64,000 nt of DNA from contig NZ_CP041191.1 in the NCBI RefSeq assembly GCF_006517275.1, forward strand, positions 1,917,001-1,981,000. The letters are read 5' to 3'. Every line of letters begins with the position of its first letter. The first letter of the stretch is position 1. A program made the translations under genes and the position numbers. The stretch is from Labrenzia sp. PHM005 (lineage in GTDB: Bacteria > Pseudomonadota > Alphaproteobacteria > Rhizobiales > Stappiaceae). Below, one piece after another: positions 46,506-61,749 of this stretch. The notes beneath the pieces are model-generated. The model saw nothing but the letters and a program-made list of their open reading frames with translations, made no database searches and was not told where the DNA came from.

Positions 46506-46624
46506 GTGCGTTTGTCTGCTGAGCCCTGTTATTGCAGTTGTTTTGCAGATGAATGCAGCACACAATCACCTAAAGCGTCTAAGGGCGAAAAAGCTGCATG
46601 TTGAATGTTTTGAGGGAAGCGGGA

Positions 46625-47497
46625 ATGGAGGTGGCTCCAGACCAAGCCGACAATGGGATTTCGGCTGAAGACGTGACGGTCACTTACCGAAACGGCCATA
46701 CCGCTCTTTGGAATGCAAGTTTTGACATTCCGCGCGGCACGGTGACAGCTTTGGTCGGGGTCAACGGTGCCGGAAAATCGACCCTCTTTAAGGCGATCAT
46801 GGGTTTTGTGCCTGCGGCCAAGGGCGATATCCGAATTCTCGATATGAGCGTCCGTGAGGCCTTACGGAAAAACCTGGTCGCTTATGTCCCTCAATCGGAA
46901 GAAGTAGATTGGTCGTTTCCGGTGCTGGTCGAAGATGTGGTCATGATGGGCCGTTATGGCCACATGGGCTTTCTGCGCTGGCCAAAAAAGGCAGATCACG
47001 AGGCGGTGTCAGAGGCGCTTGCCAGGGTCAATATGCAGGATTTCCGGCACCGTCAGATCGGGGAACTTTCCGGCGGACAAAGAAAACGGGTGTTTCTAGC
47101 CAGAGCATTGGCGCAGGACGGTCAAGTCATCTTGCTGGATGAACCCTTTACCGGCGTTGATGTGAAAACCGAAGAGCAGATTGTCGAGCTCCTGCGCGAG
47201 CTGCGTGCAGAAGGCCGGGTCATGCTGGTATCTACACACAATCTCGGTTCTGTGCCGGAATTCTGTGACCGGACGGTGCTGGTCAAAGGAACCGTGCTGG
47301 CGCATGGCCCAACGGAGACAACGTTCACGCGTGAGAACCTGGAGCATGCCTTTGGCGGGGTTCTGCGCCACTTTACCATCAGTGATCAGACGCTTCACAC
47401 AGATGGGGACGACCGCACGGTCACCATCCTGACCGACGATGAGCGGCCCTTTGTGCAGTATGGTGGTGAAGTGCAAACCACTGAGGGGCGGAAATGA
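46625..47497 (+). CDS. sitB: SitB-like manganese/iron ABC transporter ATPase
   Basis: 290-aa ATP-binding subunit. Walker [16 protein letters not shown]-loop [14 protein letters not shown], signature [15 protein letters not shown], Walker [13 protein letters not shown] and H-loop VSTHNLG. The ATG at 46625, 7 nt after GAGGGA, is preferred; an ATG at 46598 would add nine residues. It overlaps sitC by 4 nt. Confidence 0.92.
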
Positions 47498-48396
47498 TAT
47501 CCGTTCTATTGGAGCCGTTCAGTTACAGTTACATGACCAATGCCATGTGGGTGTCGGCCCTGGTCGGCGGGGTCTGCGCATTTTTGTCTGCTTACCTGAT
47601 GCTCAAAGGCTGGTCGCTGATCGGCGATGCGCTGTCTCACTCGGTGGTGCCAGGTGTGGCGGGCGCCTATATCCTCGGCCTGCCGTTCGCGCTGGGCGCC
47701 TTTATCGCAGGAGGGCTCGCAGCCGGGGCCATGCTGTTTCTGTCCGAACGATCTGGCTTGAAGGTCGATGTCATCATCGGGCTGATCTTCACTTCCTTCT
47801 TTGGACTGGGCCTGTTCATCGTTTCGGTCAATCCCATGTCGGTGTCGATCCAAACCATCACGATGGGCAACATTCTGGCGATCACACCTGAAGACACCCT
47901 GCAGCTTGCGATCATTGGATTTGTCTCGTTGGCTGTTCTTCTCGTTAAGTGGAAGGACCTGATGGTGACCTTCTTTGACGAGAACCATGCCCGGACAATT
48001 GGGCTTCGGCCTGGCCTTTTAAAGGCCGTCTTCTTTATCCTGCTGTCGGCCTCTGTTGTGGCAGCGATGCAAACGGTTGGGGCTTTTCTTGTTATTGCCA
48101 TGGTCGTAACACCCGGCGCGACGGCCTATCTGCTGTGCGACCGCTTTCCACGGTTGATCATGCTGTCGGTCGTGATCGGATCGCTCACCAGTTTTGTTGG
48201 CGCCTACATCAGCTATTTTCTGGACGGTGCAACGGGCGGAATCATCGTCACCCTGCAAACACTGATCTTTCTCGTGGCCTTTGTGTTTGCGCCCAAACAC
48301 GGCCTTCTGGCTGCCCGCCGCAAGGCGGCTGAAGCTCTGCGCCAAGGGCCGGCTGACACAAACATGCACCAGACCGTCATCGGGGAGGACCTGTGA
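47494..48396 (+). CDS. sitC: SitC-like manganese/iron ABC transporter permease
   Basis: 300-aa integral membrane subunit of the ABC-3 family with about eight to nine helices. Characteristic [21 protein letters not shown] near the N-terminus and [19 protein letters not shown] later. It overlaps sitB and sitD by 4 nt each. The protein pairs with SitD to form the membrane channel. Confidence 0.92.
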
Positions 48397-49262
48397 TAGA
48401 CCTCGATTTGTTGATGCTGCCGTTCAAATTCGCGTTCATGCAGAACGCCTTTTTGATTTGCATGCTTGTTTCCGTTCCAACCGCGCTCTTGTCCTGCTTT
48501 CTGGTGATGAAGGGTTGGGCCTTGATGGGGGATGCTGTCAGCCACGCTGTGCTGCCCGGCATTGTGCTTGCCTACATCTTCGGAATTCCTCTGATCCTGG
48601 GGGCGTTTGGAGCAGGAATGATCTGCGCCGTTGCGACGGGCTATTTGTCCGGCAACAGCCGGGTCAAGCAAGACACGGTCATGGGGGTCGTCTTCTCCGG
48701 CATGTTTGGTCTTGGCATTGTGCTTTATGTTTCGATCGAAACGAATGCGCACCTAGATCACATCCTTTTTGGCAACATGCTGGGGGTTGGCAGTCAGAAC
48801 CTTTGGACAGCGGGCATTATTTCGGTGCTGGTTGCTGGTGCGCTTGTCTTGAAATGGAAAGATCTTGTGCTGCACAGTTTTGATGCCGCTCAGGCGCAAG
48901 CGTCCGGCCTTCCGGTCAATGTGCTGCACTACGGAATGCTGGCAGCCCTGTCCTTAACGATTGTTGCCACGTTGTCTGCGGCCGGATTGATCCTCGCGAT
49001 CGGCTTGCTGATCGCTCCGGGCGCGATTGCCTTTTTACTGGTGCGCAAGTTTGGCACCATGCTTTGGATCTCTGTGATTGTCTGTATGGGATCCATGCTT
49101 GCCGGGACTTACCTGAGCTTCTTTTTGGACAGTGCCCCGGCGCCGACGATCGTGCTGATCCTGACGGCTGTCTTTATGATTGCGTTTATCCGGCGCCAAA
49201 TTGTGACCCGGCGAATGTCGATGCGCCGGATTTCTCAGACTGAAGCGACTGCATCGGAATAA
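48393..49262 (+). CDS. sitD: SitD-like manganese/iron ABC transporter permease
   Basis: 289-aa second ABC-3 permease. Family blocks: GWALMGDAVSHAVLPGIVLAY and GLLIAPGAIAFLLVRKFG. The start is a GTG at 48393 (GGGGAGGA upstream), overlapping the sitC stop. It is the last gene of sitABCD and is followed by the hairpin at 49268. Confidence 0.92.
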   Translation: MIDLDLLMLPFKFAFMQNAFLICMLVSVPTALLSCFLVMKGWALMGDAVSHAVLPGIVLAYIFGIPLILGAFGAGMICAVATGYLSGNSRVKQDTVMGVVFSGMFGLGIVLYVSIETNAHLDHILFGNMLGVGSQNLWTAGIISVLVAGALVLKWKDLVLHSFDAAQAQASGLPVNVLHYGMLAALSLTIVATLSAAGLILAIGLLIAPGAIAFLLVRKFGTMLWISVIVCMGSMLAGTYLSFFLDSAPAPTIVLILTAVFMIAFIRRQIVTRRMSMRRISQTEATASE

Positions 49263-49321: not shown

Positions 49322-50380
49322 TCAGTTCTGCACTGGTAGAGTTAGAGAGACCAGGTCAGTCCCAACAATCGTGTCTCCTTCAAACCCGCTGTCCGAAACT
49401 GCGCCGAGATAATCTTCATTGGCCAAGGCGCCGTCAGGCAACTTGTAAGGGCCTTGGCGCGGTGCGCCAACGGGTGGGATCAAATGGGTCAGCATGAGAT
49501 GTTTGACACCAGCCCGGCGGGCCAAATGGCCAAGATCGGTGGCATTGCTTTGCCGGAAATAGATCGGCGGCGGGAAGCCGGTGCCGCCATCGGGACCCAT
49601 CACCGGATGGATCGTGGAATGAACCACGATGTCAGCGCCATTCGCAAGTTTTTCAACCTGGGCTGATGTAGACGTTTCCCGAGGTGGCTTACGGGTGTCG
49701 TTTCCAGCGTCCCCGCCGATTACGACACTGCCGGCCGGCGTATCGACCCGGTAGGAAGCATGACCTGCAATATGAGTTGAGCGGATTGCACTGACTGTGA
49801 CATCGCCCTTGGCCCAAACCTGTTTCGCATCCTCTTCAGGCTTGAAGTCTTTCACGTTGATCAGGTCTGCAGGGCCACCGGGGAGCCGTTTTTTGTTTTC
49901 GGCAAGACGCTGGGCGATTTCTCCAGAATTGATGAGCGCATCCCCGATATGTTTGGCAAAGCGTTCGCAGCTCAGGGCAAAACCAAGAGGAGACTTGGTT
50001 TCCTCGCTGCACACCAAATCCACCTTCGGACCGCCTGAATTGAAGTGCCAGCGCAACTGCATCATGTCGGCCAGGCCTTCGGTGTGGTCGGAGTGCAGAT
50101 GGGTTAGAAAAACCGCGTCTAGTTTTCCGACCGGAACACCAGCCTGTGACAGGCGTTGTGTGGTTCCCCGCCCGGTGTCGAACTGCAGGCGAACGTCATT
50201 GCATTTGTTTTCCTGCGATCCGTATTGAACAAGAGTACCGGCACCCGCCTGTCCTTGAAAGACAGGAGGTCCGCCTTGGGTGCCGGTTAGTGTCACTTTT
50301 AGGCAAGGTTCCGCCATGGCAGTCTGAGCAGCAAAGGTACCCAAACCAATCAGCATTCCTGAGATTACTGTTCTCAACAT
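49322..50380 (-). CDS. Periplasmic MBL-fold metallohydrolase
   Basis: 352-aa exported hydrolase of the metallo-beta-lactamase fold, closest in pattern to the ribonuclease Z/arylsulfatase-like group. The signal peptide (VISGMLIGLGTFAAQTAMA) is followed by metal motifs THLHSDHTEG (HxHxDH), GHASYRV, VIGGDAGND and late TIHPVMGPD and LTHLIPP. The start is the ATG at 50380 with GGAGG 5 nt upstream. Its place beside YciI and the FAH/dioxygenase operon suggests hydrolysis of an ester or lactone from an aromatic substrate, which is inference. Confidence 0.78.
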   Translation of the reverse strand: MLRTVISGMLIGLGTFAAQTAMAEPCLKVTLTGTQGGPPVFQGQAGAGTLVQYGSQENKCNDVRLQFDTGRGTTQRLSQAGVPVGKLDAVFLTHLHSDHTEGLADMMQLRWHFNSGGPKVDLVCSEETKSPLGFALSCERFAKHIGDALINSGEIAQRLAENKKRLPGGPADLINVKDFKPEEDAKQVWAKGDVTVSAIRSTHIAGHASYRVDTPAGSVVIGGDAGNDTRKPPRETSTSAQVEKLANGADIVVHSTIHPVMGPDGGTGFPPPIYFRQSNATDLGHLARRAGVKHLMLTHLIPPVGAPRQGPYKLPDGALANEDYLGAVSDSGFEGDTIVGTDLVSLTLPVQN

Positions 50381-50475
50381 TATCTCCTCCCAACAGTTTT
50401 CGTTTTGAACGGCGTGTTTTTGTTGGGCCACCGGAGCTCAGGATTGGCTGCCGGCCGCCAGTTAGCTTTTTGATG

Positions 50476-50862
50476 TCATTTGAAGTCGATTTTTCCAGTA
50501 GACAGGCCGACCGATAGGGTGAAGCTGCCTTCATTGATCAGCCAGCGGCGGATTGTGTAGCTGCGTACTCCGCGCGCATGCATGGGGTCACCATCTGCAA
50601 GTTCCCGAGCGGCATCGAGCGATTCAGCTCTGTAAACAATCATACCTTCTCCGAACATCTCTTCACCGCTTTCGTCAGAGACAGGGCCGGCGAATGCGAG
50701 ACTGCCTGCGGCCTCCATTTTGGCTTGGTAGGCAAGATGATCGGGCAGGGTGCCTGGAATATCTGCGTCGGGTCCTACTGGCTTGGTATTCACTACATAA
50801 AGCTCAAGCGCCAGGGCGCCTCGTTCTTTGGCTGTGCGTTTGTAATCTTCCCACTTGGGCAT
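50476..50862 (-). CDS. YciI-family protein
   Basis: 128-aa ferredoxin-like-fold protein of the YciI/YCII group. The pattern DHLAYQAKMEAAGSLAFAGPVS and the MIVYRAESLDAARELADGDP block are typical, with the family His-Asp pair near the start (PDHL). Family members include TftG, which removes chloride from 5-chlorohydroxyquinol. Here it stands back to back with an operon ending in an intradiol dioxygenase. The shared promoter region holds the operator-like site at 50891-50907. Confidence 0.78.
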   Translation of the reverse strand: MPKWEDYKRTAKERGALALELYVVNTKPVGPDADIPGTLPDHLAYQAKMEAAGSLAFAGPVSDESGEEMFGEGMIVYRAESLDAARELADGDPMHARGVRSYTIRRWLINEGSFTLSVGLSTGKIDFK

Positions 50863-50890
50863 TCCGTTTCTCCCGATTTTTGGTGAGTAT

Positions 50891-50907
50891 AAAAAAATCG
50901 ATATTAT
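50891..50907. promoter_or_regulatory. Candidate operator of the GntR regulator at the FAH operon
   Basis: The complement of this 17-mer (ATAATATCGATTTTTTT) matches 16 of 17 positions with 57652-57668, next to the start of the FadR-type GntR gene. Located between divergent YciI and FAH genes. The TTGACA at 50908-50913 right beside it could be a -35 element. Confidence 0.6.
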
Positions 50908-50966
50908 TTGACAAATGAAAAAAACGTCGTCAAAGTGGAGTCAGATTTCGAAACACCGAGGAAACT

Positions 50967-51848
50967 ATGCGCTTCATTGTGGGAACGGGGCCGGCAGGGC
51001 CAGGCGTCTACCTGAACGAGGGGGAACAGGCGTGGAATTTAACGGCACTCGACAATGCCGTTGGCCATGATCTGATGGGACTAATTGCCGGTGCAGCTGA
51101 TGCTGCGGCTTTAGCGGCCCGCAAGGACGGTGTGGCCGCGTGTGACGCTGCAGCCATCACACCTGCGCTACCGGTAACGAAGCCCGGTAAGATTATCTGT
51201 CTCGGCCTCAATTACGTCGACCACATCAAAGAGGGTGGATACGATGTGCCCACCTATCCTGCGCTGTTTATGCGTTCTACCACCTCAATGATCCCTGCAG
51301 GCGCGCCAATGGTCCGGCCTTCCTGTTCTGAGCAGCTGGATTATGAAGCCGAATTGATGGTGATCATCGGCAAAGGCGGGCGGCATATCAGCGAAGCTGA
51401 TGCTCTTGATCATGTCTTTGGCTACACGCTGTTTAATGATGGGTCCGTGCGCGAATACCAGCGCAAGACGCACCAGTGGACGCCGGGCAAAAATTTTGAT
51501 GGCACAGGCCCAATTGGTCCAGTCGTCGTCACTCCGGATGAGCTTCCCGCGGGCGCAGAAGGGCTGAAGATTGAAAGCCGCGTCGGCAGCGAGATCCTTC
51601 AAAGCGCGACCACATCCGATATGCTTTGGAGTGTTGCGCGCACCATTTCCACCGTCTCTGAATATACGACTCTCGAGCCGGGTGATTATCTGGCGATGGG
51701 CACCCCTCCAGGGGTTGGTCATGCCAAGACTCCGCAGCGCTGGTTGCGCCCAGGCGAGATTGTCGAAGTTGAGATTGAGGGCATCGGCATATGCGCCAAT
51801 CCGATTGTAGCCGAAGAAGATATATCTGCGACGGAGGCCGCTGAATGA
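50967..51848 (+). CDS. Fumarylacetoacetate hydrolase-family enzyme
   Basis: 293-aa FAH-superfamily protein, covering hydratases, isomerases and C-C hydrolases acting on beta-diketone or oxo-acid ring-cleavage products. Motifs KPGKIICLGLNYVDHIKE, metal ligands in LDYEAELMVIIGKGGR and FNDGSVREYQRKTHQW, and MGTPPGVGHAKTP near the end. The N-terminal extension (about 60 residues) is also typical. First gene of the plus-strand operon; overlaps the nitroreductase gene by 4 nt. Confidence 0.86.
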   Translation: MRFIVGTGPAGPGVYLNEGEQAWNLTALDNAVGHDLMGLIAGAADAAALAARKDGVAACDAAAITPALPVTKPGKIICLGLNYVDHIKEGGYDVPTYPALFMRSTTSMIPAGAPMVRPSCSEQLDYEAELMVIIGKGGRHISEADALDHVFGYTLFNDGSVREYQRKTHQWTPGKNFDGTGPIGPVVVTPDELPAGAEGLKIESRVGSEILQSATTSDMLWSVARTISTVSEYTTLEPGDYLAMGTPPGVGHAKTPQRWLRPGEIVEVEIEGIGICANPIVAEEDISATEAAE

Positions 51849-52525
51849 CGATGTCTGCCTCAGTCGCGCCTGTTGGTGAGGCCCTGGAAAAACTCCGGGC
51901 CGAGGCGCAAGACGTGGTGCGGTCCTTGCGGGGCCGGATCCCGCACCTTGACGATGATGGAATAGATCTCATTCTTCGGGGAGCACGCTCGCATTATGCT
52001 TGGCAGGACAAGCCTGTGTCCCGTGAGAATTTGGAAGCGCTTTACGAGATCACCGCTTCCGGTCCGACAAGCATGAATACCTGCCCGGCGCGGTTCTTCT
52101 TCGTTGAAAGCATGGAGGCCAAACAGCGGCTGGCAAAATCGCTGAAGGACAAGAACATCGACAAGATGATGTCAGCGCCGGTGAGCGTCATCATCGCCCA
52201 TGATCTCGAATTCTGGAGAGAACTGCCGTTCCTATTTCCGCATGAGGACCGCAGGCCGCATTTTGTAGGCAAACCCGAGCACTCGGAGACAACAGCGTTT
52301 CGCAATGGAACCTTGCAAGGCGCCTACTTCATGATTGCGGCGCGGGCGCTAGGGCTTGATGTTGGGGCCATGTCCGGATTTTCGAACCAGATCGTGGATG
52401 AAGAGTTTTTTGCAGGGACAACTCTCAAGTCCAACTTCCTGTGTAATTTGGGCTATGCGGATGAAAGCGCATTGTTCCAGAAATTGCCACGGTTGCCGTT
52501 TGAGACGGCTTGCAAGTTTCTCTGA
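51845..52525 (+). CDS. Nitroreductase-family protein (RutE/HadB-like)
   Basis: 226-aa flavoprotein reductase. ITASGPTSMNTCPARFFFV (FMN loop), MSGFSNQIVDEEFFAGT and SNFLCNLGYADESALFQKLPR match the RutE/HadB subgroup, which reduces malonic semialdehyde or related small aldehydes. It lies between FAH and OsmC genes. No uracil-catabolic rutABCDF genes are visible, so here it probably serves another pathway. Confidence 0.82.
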   Translation: MTMSASVAPVGEALEKLRAEAQDVVRSLRGRIPHLDDDGIDLILRGARSHYAWQDKPVSRENLEALYEITASGPTSMNTCPARFFFVESMEAKQRLAKSLKDKNIDKMMSAPVSVIIAHDLEFWRELPFLFPHEDRRPHFVGKPEHSETTAFRNGTLQGAYFMIAARALGLDVGAMSGFSNQIVDEEFFAGTTLKSNFLCNLGYADESALFQKLPRLPFETACKFL

Positions 52526-52534
52526 GGGACTCAG

Positions 52535-52990
52535 ATGGCCATTCGGCAAAAAACAGTCATTACGGTTCGTATGACCGGCACTGCCAGCAGCCATTCCCGC
52601 TGCGAGGTTCTGGTGCGCGATCTGAAGTCCGAGATTGATGAACCGGTTGAACGAGGCGGCACCAACACCGGGTTCTCTCCGACCGAAACCGCTTATGCGG
52701 CGCTGATCGGCTGCACGAACACCATCGGCAACAAATGTGCAGACAAGCTTGGGGCCGATATCGGCCACCTCAGCTTTCAAATGGAAATTGATTTCGACCG
52801 GCGGGGCGTCCTCTTGATGGAGGAAGTGGATGTTCCATTCAAGGAAATCCGGCTCGACATCACGTCCGATGGCCCGGCGAGTGACGAAGAACTCGCGCAG
52901 GTCGCGGAAGAAACAGCCAAATATTGCCCGATTTCAAAGCTCTATGAACAAGCGGGAACCAATCTCGTGATCAGCTGGAAGAAGGCCTGA
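52535..52990 (+). CDS. OsmC-family protein
   Basis: 151-aa OsmC/Ohr-fold protein with the family's two redox cysteines, C60 in AALIGCTNT and C121 in AKYCPISKLY. Usual role: thiol-dependent peroxide reduction. In this operon it may protect against quinone- or peroxide-type by-products. It follows the nitroreductase by 9 nt and precedes the TRAP binding protein. Confidence 0.85.
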   Translation: MAIRQKTVITVRMTGTASSHSRCEVLVRDLKSEIDEPVERGGTNTGFSPTETAYAALIGCTNTIGNKCADKLGADIGHLSFQMEIDFDRRGVLLMEEVDVPFKEIRLDITSDGPASDEELAQVAEETAKYCPISKLYEQAGTNLVISWKKA

Positions 52991-53020
52991 AACCTCGGAA
53001 GTTTTTTGGGAGGAAATACA

Positions 53021-54106
53021 ATGATCGGAAAACTGACTAGACGGAGCGTGATTGCACTTGCAGCGTTGAGCGCAACGGCAATGCCATCCTTCGCGACCGA
53101 AGTTATCAAAGCGGTAGCGATCGACGGCTATCCGTCCAGAGCTATGTGGGTGAAAGAATTCTCAGAGTTCTTCATCCCAGAAGTCGATAAGCGCCTTGCC
53201 AAGACCGGCAATTACAAGATCGAATGGCAAGAAAGCTATGGCGGTTCTATCGTCAAGCCGAAGGGCGTCCTTGAGGGGATTAAACTTGGCCTCGGCGACA
53301 TCGGTATCGTCACCACGATTTTCCATTCATCGAAACTGCCAAGCCAGGCTTTGTCGGCTGTGACACCGTTTATCGCGCCGGATGCAAGAGCGGTAGCGAA
53401 GGCGGTCGATGAAATCGCCAAAGAATTCCCGACCATGCAGAAGGAATTCGAGGCGCAGAATCAAGTCTATCTGGCAACGGGCGTCGTGCTCGATACCTAT
53501 CAGGTGTTCTCCAAGGAGCCGATTGATTCTATTTCCGATTTGGCCGGATCCAAAGTGGCCGGTGCAGGCATGAACCTGCGGTACCTGGAAGGCCTGGATA
53601 ATGCGGCTGGTGTTCGTGGTGGTCTGACTGACTTCTATAACATGCTGCAGACCGGGCTTGTCGACAATGCCATGTTGTGGCCGGAAGCTGCCAAGACGTT
53701 CAAGATCGCAGAAGTCGCCCCTTATATGCTCAAAGCGGATCTTGGTGCGGTAAATTCCAAGACGATCACCGTCAATAAGGACTACTGGGACAAGTTGCCG
53801 GATGAGGTCAAAGGTGTCCTTCAAGAGGTCGCCGTGGCCTATCGTGACCATGTTGCCGGTGTCGCCATGGACCGGGCGGATGCAAGCCGGACTGCCTACA
53901 TGGAATCGGGTGGAACCGTTGTTGAAATGGATCCGGCCGAGCGCGCTCAATGGGCTGCAAACATGCCGAATATTGCGGTTGAATGGGCAGCTGGTCTCGA
54001 TACGAAGGGCGAGCCGGGCAGTGATATGCTCAAGGCTTATACGGCCAAGCTCAAGGACGCAGGTTATACACCGGTCCGGGACTGGTCTGCGGAACTGACG
54101 CAATAA
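53021..54106 (+). CDS. TRAP transporter substrate-binding protein (DctP family)
   Basis: 361-aa exported binding protein. Signal peptide (RRSVIALAALSATAMPSFA-T), then the DctP fold: VLEGIKLGLGDIGIVTTIFH, GAGMNLRYLEGLDNA and NAMLWPEAAKTFKI. Its sequence is unlike the TakP-like protein at 12695. The ATG at 53021 is chosen, with GGGAGGAAA just upstream. It supplies substrate for the FAH-to-dioxygenase pathway. Confidence 0.84.
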   Translation: MIGKLTRRSVIALAALSATAMPSFATEVIKAVAIDGYPSRAMWVKEFSEFFIPEVDKRLAKTGNYKIEWQESYGGSIVKPKGVLEGIKLGLGDIGIVTTIFHSSKLPSQALSAVTPFIAPDARAVAKAVDEIAKEFPTMQKEFEAQNQVYLATGVVLDTYQVFSKEPIDSISDLAGSKVAGAGMNLRYLEGLDNAAGVRGGLTDFYNMLQTGLVDNAMLWPEAAKTFKIAEVAPYMLKADLGAVNSKTITVNKDYWDKLPDEVKGVLQEVAVAYRDHVAGVAMDRADASRTAYMESGGTVVEMDPAERAQWAANMPNIAVEWAAGLDTKGEPGSDMLKAYTAKLKDAGYTPVRDWSAELTQ

Positions 54107-54134
54107 GCGCCGTATCAGAAACAGGATAGCTCAT

Positions 54135-54695
54135 ATGCTGCGTCTTTTGGACATCGGCCTGCGGGCTATCTCAACAGTGGCCAACTGGGTGGCGATTGGC
54201 GCCAACGCAGTTGGCACATTGATCGTCCTCGCCCTCGTTCTGGTGGTAAGTTATGATGTGGTGGCGCGTGGATTTTTCAACGCGCCATTCAGGGGAGCTG
54301 TCGAAGTTGTACAGTTCTCAATGGTTCTCATTGTCTTCCTACAGTTGCCGGACGTAGTGCGTGTTGGCCGTCTGACCCGCTCGGATGGGTTTCTGACAGT
54401 TTTGGGGGTGACACGCCCTGGTCTTGTAAAGTCGCTCCGCCGGCTGATCGATTTTGCATCTGCCGTGTTCATGGCGCTTGTCGCCTATGCGATCTGGCCA
54501 GAATTCCTAGAAATGTATGAAACAAAAGACTTCTTTGGCGTGCCAGGTGTCTTCACCGCGCCTTGGTGGCCCATAAAACTCGCGATCTATCTCAGTGCGG
54601 GTCTGTGCACAGTGATATTCCTGCTGAAGGTCTATCGGCCAGAAACCAAGCTTCCGCCGTTGCGTATGAAAGTAAACAAAGAGGACCAGGCGTGA
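54135..54695 (+). CDS. TRAP transporter small permease (DctQ family)
   Basis: 186-aa protein with four hydrophobic helices (about 20-43, 55-75, 97-118, 145-165). The family-typical stretch FFNAPFRGAVEVVQFSMVLIV resembles the conserved DctQ region. Its stop overlaps the large-permease GTG start (GTGA). Confidence 0.86.
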   Translation: MLRLLDIGLRAISTVANWVAIGANAVGTLIVLALVLVVSYDVVARGFFNAPFRGAVEVVQFSMVLIVFLQLPDVVRVGRLTRSDGFLTVLGVTRPGLVKSLRRLIDFASAVFMALVAYAIWPEFLEMYETKDFFGVPGVFTAPWWPIKLAIYLSAGLCTVIFLLKVYRPETKLPPLRMKVNKEDQA

Positions 54696-55999
54696 CACCT
54701 TTTGAAATTGGCACTCTGTCCGTCATCGCGATCGTAGTCCTGGTCTATATCGGCGTTTACATTCCGATTGCGCTTGGCCTCGTGTCTTTCGTTTCCATCC
54801 TGTTGATGCGGGACAATTTTGACCTCGCCATCAATCTTTTGAAAATCGCCATTGGCGACAGTGTGATGGAATACACCTTCGCCACTGTCCCGCTGTTCAC
54901 GTTTATGGGACTGATCGTCTCAAAGGCGGGGCTGGGCGCCGATATATATCAGGTGATGAATTCCGGTTTCCGGAGGGTCAAAGGCGGGATCGGAATGGCA
55001 ACGGTCGGAGCCAATGCGGTCTTTGCCGCCGTGACTGGATCCTCTATCGCGTCTGCCTCGGTGTTTTCCAAGGTCTCTGTGCCGCAAATGCTGGCTTTCG
55101 ACTACAATCCACGCTTTGCCGTTGGGGTCGTCGCCGGATCGTCGGTACTCGGAATGATCATTCCGCCATCAGCGATGCTGATCATCTACTCTTTTGTGGC
55201 TGAGCAAAGTGTCGGCGATATGTTTTTGGCCGGGGTGGTTCCGGGACTGATGCTGGCCGCCGCTTATGTTGTCGCGATTTTCCTGATGGGCCGGCTGACG
55301 CCCAAATATGTTGGTGGCCGCTCGGTGGAAGAAACAGAGTGGATGTCACCGCTGGAAATCGCCGATAAGACTGTGCCAACGTTGGTGCTGATCGTTGCTG
55401 TCCTTGGTGGGATCTATACTGGCTGGTTGACGCCTGTGGAAGCGGGCGCTGCAGGATCGCTCCTGGGATTGTTGATCGCAGCGTTCCGCAAAAAATTGTC
55501 CCTGCAATCGCTGTGGCAGGCACTTTTGGAAACCGGTCATATCACCGCATCTATTTTGTTCCTGATCACGGCCGCTTCGATCTACAGCCGAATGCTCGGG
55601 CTTGCTGGTGTGCCGAATGAGCTTGGCGATCTACTCAACGACACACAGATGACCTTCTTCTGGATCATGGTCATCTATGTACTCATGATGATTTTTTTGG
55701 GCACGATCCTCGATACGGCGTCGATCATCCTTATCGTCGTGCCATTGTTCCTGCCGCTGGTCGAGCCTATGGGCCTGTCGCTTGTCTGGTTCGGCATTGT
55801 GACGGTTGTCGGGGCTGAAATCGGGCTCCTGACACCGCCGCTCGGCATCTCCTGTTTTGTCATCAAAGCCACGTTGAACGACCCCAGGATTTCGCTCAAG
55901 GACGTCTTTGTCGGCGCGTTTCCGTTCGCGCTGGTCATGCTGATTGTCCTGGTTGCCTTGATCCGCTGGCCGTCATTGAGCCTGGCCATCCTAAACTAA
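54692..55999 (+). CDS. TRAP transporter large permease (DctM family)
   Basis: 435-aa standard-length DctM permease. FTFMGLIVSKAGLGADIYQVM, FAAVTGSSIASASVFSKV and GVVAGSSVLGMIIPPSAMLI match conserved family blocks; the late GLLTPPLGISCFVIKA is the C-terminal motif. The GTG start at 54692 overlaps the DctQ stop; the longer frame begins inside dctQ and is rejected. Confidence 0.9.
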   Translation: MTPFEIGTLSVIAIVVLVYIGVYIPIALGLVSFVSILLMRDNFDLAINLLKIAIGDSVMEYTFATVPLFTFMGLIVSKAGLGADIYQVMNSGFRRVKGGIGMATVGANAVFAAVTGSSIASASVFSKVSVPQMLAFDYNPRFAVGVVAGSSVLGMIIPPSAMLIIYSFVAEQSVGDMFLAGVVPGLMLAAAYVVAIFLMGRLTPKYVGGRSVEETEWMSPLEIADKTVPTLVLIVAVLGGIYTGWLTPVEAGAAGSLLGLLIAAFRKKLSLQSLWQALLETGHITASILFLITAASIYSRMLGLAGVPNELGDLLNDTQMTFFWIMVIYVLMMIFLGTILDTASIILIVVPLFLPLVEPMGLSLVWFGIVTVVGAEIGLLTPPLGISCFVIKATLNDPRISLKDVFVGAFPFALVMLIVLVALIRWPSLSLAILN

Positions 56000-56008
56000 G
56001 AGGACTTC

Positions 56009-56878
56009 ATGCGCCGCGTCACCAAAGACAACATAACCGACGTTTTCATGAACTATTTCGGCGCGGATACAGACCCGCGGTTGAAGGAAATACTGAAGAG
56101 CCTCGTTACTCATTTGCATGATTTTGCACGTGATACGAACTTGACCCATGCCGAATGGCGTAAGGGCATTGAGTTTCTGGAGTGGGCTGGAAACATCTCT
56201 GATGAAGAGCGGCATGAATTTGTGCTGCTTTCCGACGTGCTAGGATTGTCGTCCCTTGTCGACATGCTGCATTCCAGCCCGGAGGGAACATCGTCAAGCG
56301 TGCTTGGTCCGTTCCATATTACCGGAGCACCAGCTTTGCCGATTGGTGGCGACCTCAGAAAAGACTTCAAAGAGCAAGTCCTTTTGGCCGAGGGCACGAT
56401 CCGGGACGTTATGGGGAACCCGATCGAGGGAGCGGAGCTGGATATCTGGCAAACCGCACCAAATGGGATGTATTCCAGTCAGGACCCGGATCAGGACACC
56501 TACTCCTTCCATGGGATTCAAACGACCGGAAAAGACGGGCGTTATGCTTTTACATCCGTAAAACCAATTAGTTACACGGTTCCTAGTGACGGGCCGGTTG
56601 GCGATATCTTGAATGCCAGCGGCCGCCACCCGTGGCGTCCGTCACACCTCCACTACATAGTAAAAGCGCCTGGGTATCGTGATCTGGTGACTGAAATTTT
56701 CCCGGATGATGATCCATATTTGGACGAAGACACTGTCTTTGGTGTCCGTGAAGATTTGATCATGACCTATGTCGAGCAGCCGGCCGGAAGTTTCCCGGAA
56801 GAAGGGTTCGAGCTCTCCGGCAAGGTCGATGGGCCCTTTTTAAAGGCTTCCTTCGACCTAATCCTGGTCAAGGCTTAG
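56009..56878 (+). CDS. Intradiol ring-cleavage dioxygenase (hydroxyquinol/catechol 1,2-dioxygenase type)
   Basis: 289-aa non-haem iron(III) dioxygenase. The N-terminal helical dimerisation domain is FMNYFGADTDPRLKEILKSL; the catalytic core has iron ligands Y155 (PNGMYSSQ), Y189 (KPISYTVPSDGPVG), H213 and H215 (RPSHLHYIVKA). It cleaves an ortho-dihydroxylated ring between the hydroxyls. The sequence resembles hydroxyquinol 1,2-dioxygenases, but no maleylacetate reductase gene is nearby, so the downstream route is unclear. Confidence 0.88.
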   Translation: MRRVTKDNITDVFMNYFGADTDPRLKEILKSLVTHLHDFARDTNLTHAEWRKGIEFLEWAGNISDEERHEFVLLSDVLGLSSLVDMLHSSPEGTSSSVLGPFHITGAPALPIGGDLRKDFKEQVLLAEGTIRDVMGNPIEGAELDIWQTAPNGMYSSQDPDQDTYSFHGIQTTGKDGRYAFTSVKPISYTVPSDGPVGDILNASGRHPWRPSHLHYIVKAPGYRDLVTEIFPDDDPYLDEDTVFGVREDLIMTYVEQPAGSFPEEGFELSGKVDGPFLKASFDLILVKA

Positions 56879-56894
56879 GCGGCAAAGCTTAAAA

Positions 56895-56930
56895 AAACAA
56901 AGGCGGGAGTTATGTGCCCGCCTTTTTTGT
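56895..56930 (+). terminator. Intrinsic terminator after the dioxygenase gene
   Basis: Stem AAGGCGGG (56900-56907) with CCCGCCTT (56917-56924) followed by a T-run. Ends the FAH-dioxygenase operon before the convergent GntR gene. Confidence 0.9.
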
Positions 56931-56963
56931 TGCTGTGTCTCGTTCTGAAATGAATCGTTCGCG

Positions 56964-57644
56964 TTACGCGACGGCTTCGGAAGAAAAGTGCTTTTCCAGA
57001 AAAGCCCCGGTCCGCTGATAGTGATCTAGCAGCAAGTGACAGGCTTTTTCAGTGTCGCGGTCGACCGCGGCATTCATGATCTCTGTATGCTCCTTGCCGA
57101 TGTCGCGAGTGGAATAATCCAGCGCTTTGCCAGCCAGATAACGATAACGGATATTGAGATCGTAGAGTTGATTGCAGAACTTCAGCAAGACATTCGATGT
57201 GCAGGCCCCGATCAGGCTCATGTGAAAGGCCTTATGCAGGTCTTCGAACCGCTCAACGTTACTGCGCGGTTCGCGCATCATTCTGTGATGGCTGATCACC
57301 AGCTGATCTTCCCAAGCCTGATTGGCATGCTCGATGCTCTCGCGCAGAGCCATCTCCTCAAGATGACAGCGAAGTTTCAAGATCTCTGCGAAATTCTCAG
57401 GACCGACCTCGGCGCTGCGGAACCCGCGTTGATCAAGCCGCTCCACCAAAAGGTCTGACACCAGCAACGTGAGGGCTTCGCGGATCGGTGAGCCGCCCAT
57501 GTCCAGGATTTTGCGGAGACTTTCTATTTTAAGCTTTTCACCCGGCGGTATTTCTCCAGTCAGGATCTTGTGCCGAAGCGCTAGATAAGCACGCTGGGTG
57601 GCGGACGGCTCTTGCGCCGGATCTAATTGGGCCTGGATGCTCAT
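56964..57644 (-). CDS. FadR-type GntR regulator (FCD domain)
   Basis: 226-aa regulator with an N-terminal wHTH (about residues 12-75; ALRHKILTGEIPPGEKLKIE, GGSPIREALTLLVSDLLVER) and a C-terminal FCD ligand domain with metal-site residues in HKAFHMSLIGACTS and HTEIMNAAVDRD. It converges with the dioxygenase gene. The ATG lacks a Shine-Dalgarno and follows 9 nt after the palindrome AATATCGATATT (57654-57665), so bound repressor would cover its own start. Confidence 0.88.
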   Translation of the reverse strand: MSIQAQLDPAQEPSATQRAYLALRHKILTGEIPPGEKLKIESLRKILDMGGSPIREALTLLVSDLLVERLDQRGFRSAEVGPENFAEILKLRCHLEEMALRESIEHANQAWEDQLVISHHRMMREPRSNVERFEDLHKAFHMSLIGACTSNVLLKFCNQLYDLNIRYRYLAGKALDYSTRDIGKEHTEIMNAAVDRDTEKACHLLLDHYQRTGAFLEKHFSSEAVA

Positions 57645-57651
57645 GAGGTTG

Positions 57652-57668
57652 ATAATATCGATATTTTT
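57652..57668. promoter_or_regulatory. Palindromic operator upstream of the GntR regulator
   Basis: Contains the perfect 12-base palindrome AATATCGATATT. The surrounding 17-mer recurs with one mismatch at 50891-50907, in the promoter region of the FAH/TRAP/dioxygenase operon. Suggests autorepression and control of that operon by the same protein. The remaining 57669-57836 gap shows no ORF or clear structure. Confidence 0.62.
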
Positions 57669-57836: not shown

Positions 57837-59267
57837 TTACTTGCCGATCAAGCTCCCAACGCTCTTTTTGATCCGTGCTAGTATGATCGGGTCGGAAGCA
57901 TAGTGATCCTCCGCCTTGGCAAAAGCTGCTTCTGCTTTTTCGGTGTCACCCAGGGTCGCGTAAGACCGCACCAGCATTGTCCATCCATCAGGGTTGTCGG
58001 GGTTTTCTTCCAGCTTGGCGGCCAATCCTGCGACCATCCCTTGAATGAGGTCAGCTTGATCATCTTGTGACAGGCTTTGGACAGCAGCTACGTCTTCGTC
58101 GGTTATTCTTTTGGTGCCGGATTGGCTTTCAATGAGGTCCAAACCCAGATCAGTCGCAGTCTCATTGATCTTGGCAAGGACGAACGGGGCCGCGGCAAAC
58201 CGCTGACGGGCTTCTTCGATGGCCAAACGTGCCAGATCGTCTTCGCCGAGAGCAGCTCGGATTTGAGCCAGCTCCTGCCAGTCCTTGTAGTTGGTCGGGT
58301 CACCCACCAAGGATTGATCCAGATCTGCTGCCCGGTCGGCGAGGGCAACCGGATCCCTACCGTTGCCATCACCGCCGGCTCTGGCGACTTCGGTGTCGGT
58401 TGCTTCCGGCAAATAGTCTTTGACATCCCGTTTGGTGAAGCGGGCCATATTGACGATGTCGCGCCGGACGAGCTGCATCCATGGTGCGCGCGGATCGGAA
58501 TCTGCTGCAAGGGCGGTCCAGTCGTTCAATGCGCCCTCAAAATCTTGTGCCTGGGCCTTTGCAAGAGCCAGGTAATAGCGTGCCCGCGGGTCGTTGTTTT
58601 CTGCCCGGATTTGCTCGAACAGAATCTTTGCTGCCTGGGGAACCTTGTTGCCATTGGCCAAGGTCATGGATTCAGCATAAGTGGACAGAACGCTCGGATC
58701 ATTGCCGGACAATTCCGCTGCGCGTCTGTAAGCATCGGCTGCAGACGCATTGTCACCGGTCGCCGCATAGCTTTTTGCGAGCAGCCACCAGTTTTCAAAA
58801 GATTCCGGGCTCTCCTTGACTGCTTCAACCAAAAGCTGGATGCGGCTGTTGATGTCGCCTGCCTCCGCCTTGCGGATCAGGGTTTCCGTTTTACGAGCCG
58901 CCAGCGGCTGGTCTTGCAGTTCAGGATGGCCGAGCCAGAGGTATCCGCCGATCGACCCGACACAAACTGCGATCAAGACAAGGACTGCAACGATCGGTGA
59001 GCGGTGAGACACAGACATGCCGCCGACAGAATGACGGGCGGCCCGGAGGGCACGCGCTTCGATTTCTCTTTGGGCGGCATCAAACTCCGACTGTGAAATA
59101 AGCCCGGCATCCAGGTCTCGATGGACCTCATCGGCTTGATCCCGATAAATCGACAAGGCTGCGTCGGTTTCATCCCGTTCAACTTCGGTTCGGCGCAAAA
59201 ACGGCCAGACCAGCCAAAGGGCGCACAGACCCAAAGCGGCAATTGTCAGAATCCAAAAAGAGGTCAT
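57837..59267 (-). CDS. ccmI: CcmI/NrfG-type cytochrome c biogenesis protein
   Basis: 476-aa haem-lyase accessory protein. Two N-terminal membrane helices (FWILTIAALGLCALWLVWPF and IVAVLVLIAVCVGSIGGYLW) flank a cytoplasmic leucine-zipper-like loop, followed by a periplasmic TPR region (about 140-470) that binds apocytochrome. It is longer than many CcmI. It overlaps ccmH by 4 nt and is the last gene of the crp-ccmF-ccmH-ccmI unit. Confidence 0.9.
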   Translation of the reverse strand: MTSFWILTIAALGLCALWLVWPFLRRTEVERDETDAALSIYRDQADEVHRDLDAGLISQSEFDAAQREIEARALRAARHSVGGMSVSHRSPIVAVLVLIAVCVGSIGGYLWLGHPELQDQPLAARKTETLIRKAEAGDINSRIQLLVEAVKESPESFENWWLLAKSYAATGDNASAADAYRRAAELSGNDPSVLSTYAESMTLANGNKVPQAAKILFEQIRAENNDPRARYYLALAKAQAQDFEGALNDWTALAADSDPRAPWMQLVRRDIVNMARFTKRDVKDYLPEATDTEVARAGGDGNGRDPVALADRAADLDQSLVGDPTNYKDWQELAQIRAALGEDDLARLAIEEARQRFAAAPFVLAKINETATDLGLDLIESQSGTKRITDEDVAAVQSLSQDDQADLIQGMVAGLAAKLEENPDNPDGWTMLVRSYATLGDTEKAEAAFAKAEDHYASDPIILARIKKSVGSLIGK

Positions 59268-59752
59268 GACCGGCCATCCTTCAGTATTTTCTGCGCCGAA
59301 GAGCGTTCTTCCTCGGTCAGCGGCACCTCTTCAACAGGGTGCCTACGGGATCTCATATATCCGATGGCAGCCCCCAGGCTCAGCAGCAGTGCCATGACCG
59401 GCGTTAGCCAAAGGACAGCGTTTTTGAGCGACATACGCGGATTCAACAGGACATAATCGCCATAGCGGTCCGCGATGTAGGAGAGGATCTCCTTATCCGT
59501 TTCGCCTTCTTCCATACGGGTGCGCACCAGGACTCTGAGGTCTTTGGCCAAACCGGAATTGGAATCAAAGATCGACTGGTTCTGGCAGACCATGCATCGG
59601 AGCTGGCGGCCGATTTCCCGGGCGCGTTCTTCTTTGGTCGGGTCGGCAAACATTTCGCTGCCGTCAACCGCAAGGGCTGCGCCGGATGCAAGAGTTAAGG
59701 CGACAAGTGCTGCCAGAAGCTGTCTTATTGATAGCCGGAGAGCTGTGGTCAT
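59264..59752 (-). CDS. ccmH: CcmH/NrfF-type thiol oxidoreductase
   Basis: 162-aa membrane-anchored CcmL/CcmH protein keeping apocytochrome CxxCH cysteines reduced. Signal peptide (LLAALVALTLASGAALA), redox motif LRCMVCQNQSIFDSNSGLAK, one C-terminal transmembrane helix (LWLTPVMALLLSLGAAIGYM). It lies 11 nt after ccmF. No ccmE is encoded between them. Confidence 0.92.
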   Translation of the reverse strand: MTTALRLSIRQLLAALVALTLASGAALAVDGSEMFADPTKEERAREIGRQLRCMVCQNQSIFDSNSGLAKDLRVLVRTRMEEGETDKEILSYIADRYGDYVLLNPRMSLKNAVLWLTPVMALLLSLGAAIGYMRSRRHPVEEVPLTEEERSSAQKILKDGRS

Positions 59753-59763
59753 CAGACTGCCTC

Positions 59764-61749
59764 CTATTCGGCCGGTTGGGGCAGTGCCCCAGATGATTTG
59801 CGGGCAGTCGGAACGCCGACACGGAGGCGGCGGTCACCGAGCGAAATCAGTCCGGACAAGGAAATCAGCAGGGCGCCGAGCCACATCCAGGGCACGCCAG
59901 GATTATAGTAGAAGCGAACCACAAACTGGCCATTGGCAGCCGGATCGCCCAGCACTGCGTAGTAATCGCCGTGCCAGCGGGTTTCAATGCCGGCTTCTGT
60001 CGTGGGTTTTTGCTCAACCGGATACCAGCGGCGCTCGGGATAGAGCGTGGTCACCGGTTCGCCGCCTAAGGTGACGTCGACAGTGGCGACAGATGTCCTG
60101 TAATTCGGCCCAAAGCCGTCCTTGACCTGTACCAAGTTATATTCGTACCGGCCGACCTCAATCGGGATGCCCGGTGTGACGGTCTGTATCTTTTCGATGC
60201 TCCAGAGGGATGCAGCAACGACACCGGCCGAGGCGATTGCGATCCCTAGATGTCCGGTATAGAGCCCCCAAGCTGACAGCGGCAGGCCGAACAATCGTCT
60301 TGGAATAGCTGACCATCTTGCCGACCCGACACCGGCGCGGCGGGCGAGATCAAGGAGCGTTGCGACGCCTAGGAAAAGCGCGGTGCCGATGCCGAAGATG
60401 CTAACCGGATCGGGTGTGCCAAAGACAACTAGCAACAGGAGTCCCAGGACTGCAGTTGTCGATGCTGTTATCAGCGTATCCTTGCGGACACGGCGCATGT
60501 TGGCCCGTTTCCAGGACAAGAAAGGGCCAATTCCGGCGAGCAGAACAACACCTGCGAAGATGGGCAGGAAGGTTCGGTTGAAGTACGGTGCGCCGACGGT
60601 GATTTTTTCGCCTGTCGCGATATCAAGGAAGAGCGGGAACAACGTGCCGACAAAGACGGTTGCTGTGCAGGCACTCAACAGCACATTGTTCATCAGCAAA
60701 CCCGTCTCGCGGGAGAGTGTTCCGAAAGTTCCGCCTTCCCGGATGTGCGACGCCCGCGCTGCAAAGAGGGTCAAGGCTCCACCGATCGCCAGGACCAACA
60801 GCAGAAGGATGAAGACACCGCGTTCCGGATCGTTTGCGAATGCGTGAACGGACGACAGAATGCCGGACCGGACCAGGAAGGTGCCTACCAAACTCAGTGC
60901 AAAGGTCAGGATTGCCAGTAGGATTGTCCAGGTTAGGAGGGCTGCGCGTTTTTCAACGACGATGGCCGAGTGGAGCAGTGCCGTTCCCAGGAGCCAGGGC
61001 ATAAAGGACGCATTTTCAACCGGGTCCCAGAACCAGAAACCGCCCCAGCCGAGTTCGTAGTAAGCCCACCAGCTGCCAAGCGCGATACCGGCGGTCAAGC
61101 CGGACCAGGCCAGCAATACCCAGGGGCGCATCCAGCGGGCCCAGCTGGGATCAACTTGGCCACGAACCAGAGCTGCAATAGCAAAGGAGAACGCGGTCGA
61201 AAACCCGACATAACCGAGATAAAGCAGCGGCGGATGGAAGGCGACGCCCGGATCCTGAAGCAGCGGGTTCATGCCCTGGCCATCGAGCGGCGGATGCGGA
61301 ATGCGCTCAAACGGGTTTGATGTGAGCAGGATAAATCCGATGAAACCAACGCCGATCATGGCCTGGACGGCGAGCACTACGGAGCGCATGCTGACCGGAA
61401 TGGTCTTGCCGAAGAAGGCGATCAGAACACTGAACAAGGCCAAGATCAACACCCAGAGAAGCATCGACCCTTCGTGGTTCGCCCAGACACCCGTCACTTT
61501 GTAAAGTAGCGGCTTGCTGGAATGGCTGTTGAGCGCAACGTTCAGAACCGAGAAGTCGGACACCACATAAGCGTAGGTGAGAGCTCCAAAGGCGGCCGCG
61601 ATCGCAAGGAACTGGATCTCCGCTGCGTGATCCGCAAAGCGCATGGCGGAGGCGTTGTCGGTTTGAAGACCCCAAATCGGGACGATGGCCTGGAGAACGG
61701 CAACTGCAAGCGCCAAGACTAGACAAAAATGACCAAATTCGATGATCAT
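59764..61749 (-). CDS. ccmF: CcmF/NrfE-type haem lyase
   Basis: 661-aa integral membrane protein with about 14-15 helices; holds haem at the periplasmic face and attaches it to apocytochrome. The tryptophan-rich WWD motif is GSWWAYYELGWGGFWFWDPV; conserved His residues precede and follow it. It overlaps the crp gene by 4 nt. The order ccmF-ccmH-ccmI without ccmE mirrors nrfEFG, the dedicated lyase set for NrfA. Confidence 0.93.
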   Translation of the reverse strand: MIIEFGHFCLVLALAVAVLQAIVPIWGLQTDNASAMRFADHAAEIQFLAIAAAFGALTYAYVVSDFSVLNVALNSHSSKPLLYKVTGVWANHEGSMLLWVLILALFSVLIAFFGKTIPVSMRSVVLAVQAMIGVGFIGFILLTSNPFERIPHPPLDGQGMNPLLQDPGVAFHPPLLYLGYVGFSTAFSFAIAALVRGQVDPSWARWMRPWVLLAWSGLTAGIALGSWWAYYELGWGGFWFWDPVENASFMPWLLGTALLHSAIVVEKRAALLTWTILLAILTFALSLVGTFLVRSGILSSVHAFANDPERGVFILLLLVLAIGGALTLFAARASHIREGGTFGTLSRETGLLMNNVLLSACTATVFVGTLFPLFLDIATGEKITVGAPYFNRTFLPIFAGVVLLAGIGPFLSWKRANMRRVRKDTLITASTTAVLGLLLLVVFGTPDPVSIFGIGTALFLGVATLLDLARRAGVGSARWSAIPRRLFGLPLSAWGLYTGHLGIAIASAGVVAASLWSIEKIQTVTPGIPIEVGRYEYNLVQVKDGFGPNYRTSVATVDVTLGGEPVTTLYPERRWYPVEQKPTTEAGIETRWHGDYYAVLGDPAANGQFVVRFYYNPGVPWMWLGALLISLSGLISLGDRRLRVGVPTARKSSGALPQPAE

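Follow-up and report, generated by a model that had tools for sequence, protein, structure and literature searches.

Gene content of the locus

The window analyzed here is a stretch of 64,000 nucleotides from Labrenzia sp. PHM005 (the host). Between positions 49322 and 57644 it contains ten intact reading frames, each of which reaches the Pfam cut-off. The domains are metallo-beta-lactamase, YCII, FAA_hydrolase, nitroreductase, OsmC, DctP, DctQ, DctM, Dioxygenase N and C, and GntR with FCD (Table 1), which confirms the gene block and domains reported in the initial annotation. ORF clusters 10, 22, 38 and 49 were excluded by position as antisense or overlapping frames.

Table 1. Features of the block, in positions of the window
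Feature	Position	Strand	Evidence or location
Metallo-beta-lactamase-fold hydrolase, probably secreted	49322..50380	-	PF12706 and PF00753 over cut-off
YciI-like protein	50476..50862	-	PF03795, 48 bits (cut-off 24)
Operator 1, AAAATCGATATT (right side: ATTTGAC)	50894..50905		Divergent YciI/FAH promoter; host C2:1967894-1967905
FAH-superfamily enzyme	50967..51848	+	PF01557, 224.7 bits
RutE-like nitroreductase-family FMN reductase	51845..52525	+	NF003768, 259.8 bits (cut-off 152)
OsmC-like protein	52535..52990	+	PF02566
TRAP substrate-binding protein, DctP family	53021..54106	+	PF03480
TRAP small permease DctQ	54135..54695	+	PF04290
TRAP large permease DctM	54692..55999	+	PF06808; TIGR00786 over cut-off
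Hydroxyquinol-type intradiol ring-cleavage dioxygenase	56009..56878	+	PF04444 and PF00775
GntR/FCD regulator, presumed controller of the block	56964..57644	-	PF00392 and PF07729
Operator 2, AATATCGATATT	57654..57665		Adjoins the GntR start

The metallo-beta-lactamase-fold hydrolase has a signal peptide and an HLHSDH motif, both read by eye, and the ATG at 50380, ahead of the apparent signal peptide, fits better as its start than the GTG at 50431. Possible activities are aryl-sulfatase or lactonase/esterase; its top match in the PDB, to the arylsulfatase 8gyg (E 8.7e-13), spans just 51 residues, so that the arylsulfatase role stays a guess. For the YciI-like protein we can only guess at an isomerase/tautomerase or lactone-handling role; a PDB search up to E 0.1 returned a single match, HI0828 (E 0.095).

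The top NCBIfam model for the FAH-family enzyme is NF053535, a 2,4-diketo-acid hydrolase (184 bits, below its 500-bit cut-off); none of the seven models listed reached its own cut-off, and there was no curated equivalog assignment among them. The enzyme carries the metal ligands E127, E129 and D158, plus K175 and the dyad H86/E89, functional roles that we presume. The same residues occur in the HpcE decarboxylase, so the set is not discriminating and does not prove hydrolysis. The neighboring nitroreductase-family protein passes the model named malonic semialdehyde reductase, which is of the RutE type, while no other rut gene of the pyrimidine pathway lies among the ten genes. Its best PDB relative is IstO of the isatropolone system (7vqk, E 3.8e-31), described as oxidizing and reducing aglycones. 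We propose that the RutE-like protein acts as a quinone reductase. Pairs of the FAH and nitroreductase genes at 49-59% identity also occur in two loci, L117 and L118, with no copy of the block's dioxygenase nearby.

Conservation of the block and its operators

We kept 80 loci, and the 62 with at least 8.9 kb of upstream sequence form the basis of the locus counts. Loss of the neighborhood in relatives had been named beforehand as a refuting observation, and the block survives it: the nitroreductase, DctM and dioxygenase genes occur together in 57 of the 62 loci, and the FAH gene is present in 50 of these 57. An HMGL-like gene takes the place of FAH in the other seven, and no FAH homologue over 47% identity was found in those seven genomes; locus L115 has neither gene within 19.5 kb. 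The regulator was found in 56 of the 62 loci and OsmC, which we propose to be a dispensable peroxide or thiol protection protein, in 49; an annotated plasmid copy has the identical gene order minus OsmC. Among 87 genomes of the host family, 26 encode a dioxygenase of this subfamily (at least 66% identity). The FAH gene (at least 62%) is found in all 26 and in only one of the other 61. The gene set is carried by many marine bacteria, roseobacters and Roseibium among them.

A 16-mer, ATCGATATTATTTGAC, occurs within two mismatches in all 56 relatives with a scorable divergent promoter (33 exact, the motif having been derived from these same regions) and in none of 100 mononucleotide shuffles. In the relatives this one operator sits between the strand of YciI and the malonate (mat) genes and the strand running from FAH to the dioxygenase, and in 7 of 9 relatives the metallo-beta-lactamase gene has its own operator copy. 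Operator 2 is the sole exact copy of its sequence in the 6.19 Mb host genome and recurs at the GntR gene, within one mismatch, in 19 of 55 relatives (shuffle mean 0.02); GntR presumably regulates its own expression through it. When up to one mismatch was allowed, operator-like sites were found at 20 places in the host, compared with one for the reversed control; two of the 20 are in the window and ten inside a reading frame. The palindrome of the shared operator also lies ahead of GntR and, as one of these 20 sites, with one mismatch ahead of a TAXI importer encoded far away in the host genome. The shared operator supports the initial view of one regulated locus, and the block is best explained as the central part of a GntR-controlled regulon for breaking down a polyhydroxylated aromatic compound.

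Ring cleavage, the missing reductase and the malonate genes

The five best PDB relatives of the dioxygenase have E values of 5e-73 to 4e-59, and three of them are named hydroxyquinol or 6-chlorohydroxyquinol dioxygenase, in agreement with the type of ring-cleaving enzyme first assigned. Y155, Y189, H213 and H215, the two tyrosines and two histidines that we take to be the metal ligands, are invariant across 19 aligned sequences including that of the window. In the tree the subfamily forms one side of a branch with support 100/99; because long branches meet there, we mainly used the two-group split. Each of the seven control dioxygenases, at 42-48% identity, has a gene annotated as maleylacetate reductase no more than about 6 kb away, and 25 positions set the subfamily apart from them; at E 1e-10, none of the block's other genes found a match in their loci.

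Neither the locus nor the Fe-ADH matches of the host yielded a maleylacetate reductase. PF00465 matches three host proteins, two Fe-ADHs and one 3-dehydroquinate synthase, and the Fe-ADHs are 26-31% identical to the seven maleylacetate reductases, which are at least 47% identical to each other. Across 85 subfamily loci there was one maleylacetate reductase match (L066, 27-33%). The lack of this reductase, already noted from the first inspection, is well supported, and the different route after ring opening that was proposed then gains support from it. In two loci, L039 and L060, BKACE genes adjoin the dioxygenase.

Genes for malonyl-CoA decarboxylase (MatA), malonyl-CoA synthetase (MatB) or both lie on the YciI strand in 40 of the 57 relatives (837 and 753 bits with the synthase model, whose cut-off is 558; more than 300 bits with PF05292 for the decarboxylase). 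Placement relative to YciI could be scored for 61 mat genes, all of which share its strand and lie within 4.5 kb of it. In 17 of the 57 loci there is no mat gene; the decarboxylase is encoded elsewhere in 15 of these 17 genomes and was not found in the other two searched (L059 and L067). The decarboxylase is common regardless, being present in 50 of the 61 family genomes lacking the dioxygenase subfamily. MatA and MatB are absent from the window, and the host encodes them in a separate GntR-DctPQM-MatAB operon (67% and 75% identical, respectively, to those of locus L007). We regard the malonate linkage of the block as well supported; the mat genes beside YciI in relatives point to malonate as a product and so limit the substrate.

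In malonate operons, MatA and MatB are encoded together with TRAP importers and a GntR regulator. Like the matPQMAB operon, the block has a TRAP importer and a GntR regulator, and relatives of the block add MatA and MatB homologues, but neither its importer nor its regulator closely resembles the counterpart in the host mat operon: DctM is 31% identical, and neither DctP nor GntR gave a match at E 1e-5. The block DctP is 23-26% identical to two other host DctPs. Because the host mat operon has this different TRAP system, we do not favor the block TRAP system as a malonate importer.

A candidate breakdown route and its alternatives

From the domains, linkage, operator, mat linkage and the maleylacetate reductase not found, all read from the sequence, we infer a substrate and each reaction of a route that seems to depart from the textbook one. 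The TRAP system, together with the TAXI system behind the same operator, would import an aromatic acid or related anion, possibly freed beforehand by the secreted hydrolase; roseobacters offer a precedent for the uptake of an aromatic acid by a TRAP system, as described in PMC12442348. The RutE-like reductase would hold the ring compound in the hydroquinol state, and the dioxygenase would cut the ring between two hydroxyls, which for a 1,2,3,5-tetrahydroxy pattern would yield 2,4-dioxoadipate. This is a 2,4-diketo acid, the type split by FAH-superfamily acylpyruvases, and we propose that the FAH enzyme cleaves it to pyruvate and malonate. MatB and MatA would carry malonate to malonyl-CoA and acetyl-CoA, in place of the usual maleylacetate reductase route. 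Chemical reasoning suggests that, among benzene triols and tetrols, an acylpyruvate arises only from the 1,2,3,5 pattern. We give this reading as a whole, with a 1,2,3,5-tetrahydroxybenzene-type ring as substrate, about an even chance of being correct. There is no tetrol-forming hydroxylase in the window; an FAD monooxygenase like that of locus L075 was considered as the upstream hydroxylase and rejected, the best host matches being 27-29% identical over about 340 of 532 residues. Other observations that speak against the route are the seven loci with an HMGL-like gene where FAH would be, locus L115 with neither gene, the 17 loci lacking a mat gene, two of them in genomes where no decarboxylase was found, how common the decarboxylase is in family genomes lacking the subfamily, and the FAH-nitroreductase pairs of L117 and L118.

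A variant of the ordinary hydroxyquinol pathway, with the dioxygenase forming maleylacetate and the RutE-like reductase or FAH (as decarboxylase or hydrolase) replacing maleylacetate reductase, would suit both the nearest solved relatives of the dioxygenase, which are hydroxyquinol and 6-chlorohydroxyquinol enzymes, and the RutE-like reductase in 57 of 62 loci. We find it unlikely, since by our reasoning FAH-type chemistry on maleylacetate yields no malonate, so that the 40 mat linkages would go unexplained; the 25 positions noted above also argue against it. The block has the dioxygenase family of the hydroxyquinol/3-oxoadipate branch, but where that branch has maleylacetate reductase it has FAH, the RutE-like reductase, TRAP and, in relatives, mat genes. 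A reading with two adjoining functions, in which TRAP, GntR and MatAB serve the uptake of malonate (or a dicarboxylate) and the genes for ring cleavage are separate cargo, would follow the pairing in the host malonate operon. The divergence of that operon's TRAP and GntR proteins, the single operator between the two strands and the co-occurrence of FAH and dioxygenase throughout the 26 family genomes make this quite improbable.

Breakdown of a chlorinated or brominated hydroxyquinol, the direction first suggested, with the YciI protein as a dehydrohalogenase like TftG (which is YciI-like), is in our estimation very unlikely. The YciI domain is present, and PMC3975901 describes TftG and the nitroreductase-like TcpB acting beside hydroxyquinol-type dioxygenases in the tcp/tft clusters of chlorohydroxyquinol pathways. 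In the block, however, the similarity is at the family level, with no TftG among the YciI PDB matches up to E 0.1, and the ten genes include neither an FADH2 monooxygenase nor a maleylacetate reductase. The earlier interpretation is supported for the regulated locus, ring cleavage, reductase absence and different route, and not supported for the TftG link; it did not take in the mat genes of the relatives. A 1,2,4,5-tetrol, giving 3,4-dioxoadipate and then malonate and malonic semialdehyde, the latter reduced by the RutE-like enzyme, would account for the mat genes and the RutE model match alike. We see hardly any chance for it: the model that scores best for FAH describes a 2,4-diketo-acid hydrolase, and the route needs hydrolysis between two ketones, which is not a known FAH reaction.

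The preferred 1,2,3,5 route would share its substrate with the fungal 1,2,3,5-tetrahydroxybenzene central pathway. A 2026 paper describes that pathway as seemingly confined to fungi, and the fungal ring opening is assigned to a DUF3500/DUF3550 protein and not to an intradiol enzyme; by domain calls, no DUF3500 protein is among the ten genes. Our broader suggestion, held tentatively and at somewhat less than even probability, is that bacteria have a central pathway of their own for rings of the 1,2,3,5-tetrahydroxybenzene type, widespread among marine alphaproteobacteria, in which a hydroxyquinol-like intradiol dioxygenase and an FAH acylpyruvase yield pyruvate and malonate.

Hydroxyquinol-type dioxygenases are usually assumed to supply maleylacetate for 3-oxoadipate, and the block, in 57 of the 62 related loci with enough flank, appears to supply malonate instead. 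If so, gene names in roseobacters and Roseibium mislead on the lower pathway. The route would lead from aromatics to malonyl-CoA, of relevance to marine carbon cycling and malonyl-CoA engineering, and would be the bacterial counterpart, with another ring-opening enzyme, of a pathway so far reported from fungi alone. It could serve marine compounds derived from gallate, syringate or phloroglucinol.

Gene block and its conservation

The block comprises ten genes, all intact, and lies in a host genome of 6.19 Mb on two contigs, with the nearest named dioxygenases coming from Roseibium and Labrenzia.

Positions of the gene block, its flanks and related features (C2, host contig coordinates; L-numbers, relatives' loci)
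Feature	Position	Strand	Remark
MBL, YciI	block, window 49322-57644	minus	
FAH, nitroreductase (NTR), OsmC, DctP, DctQ, DctM, intradiol dioxygenase (DIOX)	block, window 49322-57644	plus	
GntR regulator	block, window 49322-57644	minus	
Metal-type ABC transporter genes	window 46598-49262		upstream of block; assigned by eye, seemingly unrelated
Cytochrome c maturation genes	window 57837-61749		downstream of block; assigned by eye, seemingly unrelated
TAXI importer, fused permease, cupin protein	host C2:5394844-5398392 (L144:9845-13393)		behind operator (1 mismatch), far from window
FAH-NTR-OsmC-GntR-DctP	L117:3561-12595		hydantoinase A gene near; DIOX absent from stretch
PF00884-type sulfatase genes near DIOX	L058:10433-12061; L074:7142-8722; L115:2109-3518		L115 by 32-33% similarity only
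Beta-keto acid cleavage enzymes adjoining DIOX	L039:5160-6002; L060:8015-8848		

A scan of species genomes gave 282 stretches encoding a DIOX relative. The 80 best loci were retained; 62 of these 80 had at least 8.9 kb upstream, and gene presence was scored by identity thresholds. In these 62 flank-filtered loci from the best 80 of 282, NTR, DctM and DIOX occurred together in 57, and FAH was present in 50 of those 57. YciI and GntR were each found in 56/62, OsmC in 49/62 and MBL in 9/62. Among 87 genomes of the host's family, DIOX of at least 66% identity was present in 26, and 20 held only a relative of at most 51%. FAH of at least 62% occurred in 27/87, namely all 26 with DIOX plus G346, a genome with no DIOX match. 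Among 289 genomes drawn across the class, the DIOX subfamily was found in two, the host and G034 (72%), the next match being 50%. The G034 locus, L115, encodes DIOX, DctMQP, OsmC, NTR, YciI and malonyl-CoA decarboxylase; FAH, HMGL and any close GntR are missing from its stretch, and the G034 genome gave no FAH match at 1e-85. DIOX also occurs together with a 46% FAH homologue in L076, a 3.2 kb contig assigned to Rhodopirellula, possibly through a binning error.

Maleylacetate reductase and the dioxygenase clade

An annotated maleylacetate reductase lies within about 6 kb of 7/7 plasmid-borne dioxygenases at 42-48% identity, which were chosen among 40 listed of 725 matching records and include that of Caballeronia NK8, whose record listing itself already named the reductase. 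At E 1e-10, neither the other block genes nor the malonyl-CoA decarboxylase and synthetase genes (mat genes) had a match in any of these seven loci, each fetched as a 12-17 kb stretch. The seven reductases are at least 47% identical to one another. Of the three host matches, two are Fe-alcohol dehydrogenases that share 26-31% identity with these reductases and score below every NCBIfam cut-off; the other is a 3-dehydroquinate synthase. Among these three matches, no MALEYLACETATE (maleylacetate) reductase was found in the host. No maleylacetate reductase match was obtained in 84/85 subfamily loci, L066 alone having a distant one (27-33%). In the DIOX tree, 83 subfamily rows split from the seven reductase-linked rows (support 100/99), and 25 positions tell the two groups apart.

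Proposed chemistry and malonate genes

Catechol, pyrogallol and hydroxyquinol would be expected to yield no 2,4-diketo acid on intradiol cleavage. Cleavage of a 1,2,3,5-tetrol would give 2,4-dioxoadipate, which acylpyruvase chemistry would convert to pyruvate and malonate. The nearest model to FAH is a 2,4-diketo-acid hydrolase (184 bits, below cut-off), and its catalytic residues are kept, as they also are in the HpcE decarboxylase. In a rival route, a 1,2,4,5-tetrol could give malonate and malonic semialdehyde, but this needs a type of bond breakage that FAH enzymes are not known to perform. NTR may reduce a quinone and OsmC may handle peroxide; any roles for YciI and MBL are guesses, and the sulfatase genes near DIOX perhaps point to sulfated substrates. 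An FAD monooxygenase gene directly follows FAH-DIOX in L075. Genes of its loose cluster also occur close to DIOX in L025, L063, L085 and L086; the host has no close homologue of the L075 enzyme.

With families assigned from example proteins, the decarboxylase is encoded on the YciI strand in 38/57 block loci, the synthetase in 24/57 and at least one of them in 40/57. All 61 mat genes scorable with YciI share its strand and lie at most 4.5 kb away; for about one third of the decarboxylases the distance to YciI is roughly 740 bases, with the GntR gene between them in Ruegeria-type loci. An annotated plasmid of Pacificitalea manganoxidans has the order synthetase, decarboxylase, YciI, FAH, reductase, DctPQM, dioxygenase, GntR, and in L121 and L122, from the host's genus, the synthetase adjoins YciI. 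Mat genes are absent from the host's block in the window; near C2:4.82 Mb the host has GntR-DctP-DctQ-DctM-decarboxylase-synthetase, whose importer and regulator are not close to the window's. By coordinates, a decarboxylase lies at most 5 kb from FAH in 16 of the 26 family genomes with the subfamily, and one is present anywhere in the genome in 26/26 of these versus 50/61 of those without it.

Several observations count against the proposed route. A genome search for the 17 block loci without mat genes (L072 and L073, with synthetase only, were left out) found a decarboxylase elsewhere in 15/17 and none in the genomes of L059 and L067. FAH-NTR pairs without DIOX nearby occur in L117 and L118 (49-59% identity). 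An HMGL-like gene is present in 7/57 block loci, the same seven without FAH, and in 0/50 with FAH; a search of these seven genomes, several being metagenome bins, gave no FAH homologue above 47%. The HMGL rows do not all group together in the DIOX tree, L066 and L070 standing apart from the Silicimonas group, although L070 is joined to a long branch. LeuA-like HMGL genes were seen near GntR in L031, L041, L049, L066, L069, L070 and L085, the seven FAH-less loci with sufficient flank, and also in L045, L063, L084 and L086.

In FAMeDB, 1,2,3,5-tetrahydroxybenzene is entered as an intermediate of ring opening in fungi, and its pathway is said to seem confined to fungi (PMC13094099); the conversion of gallate to the tetrol by Aspergillus is described in PMC12388069. 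Other articles treat TftG and TcpB (PMC3975901), count Yoonia hydroxyquinol dioxygenase genes under chlorobenzene degradation (PMC10673129) and describe TRAP import of 4-hydroxybenzoate in one roseobacter (PMC12442348); the words tetrahydroxybenzene, malonyl, malonate and intradiol are all absent from the last. By titles and abstract starts, no paper on the block was found in the open-licence literature.

Operator and regulon

The motif ATCGATATTATTTGAC was found with at most 2 mismatches in the YciI/FAH (or YciI/NTR) divergent region of 56/56 scorable loci (exact in 33), a count to be read knowing that the motif was derived from these same regions and is partly common by descent among related sequences. 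In 100 rounds of mononucleotide shuffling there were zero matches. The core palindrome AATATCGATATT has a single exact copy in the host genome, adjoining GntR, and occurs at GntR with at most 1 mismatch in 19/55 relatives versus a shuffle mean of 0.02. MBL has its own operator copy in 7/9 relatives; in L011, L013 and the window it lies behind YciI and lacks such a copy.

At C2:5394844 an operator copy precedes the host's genes for a TAXI binding protein, fused permease and cupin. Close homologues of this binding protein (59-85%) occur in 7 of 85 loci searched; upstream of these seven, the 12-mer operator was found with at most 1 mismatch in three and at most 2 in three, and was not found (4 mismatches) in one. 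An operator-like site separates the FAD monooxygenase gene from the TAXI gene in L063. Judged from these sequence patterns, the block is one predicted regulon.
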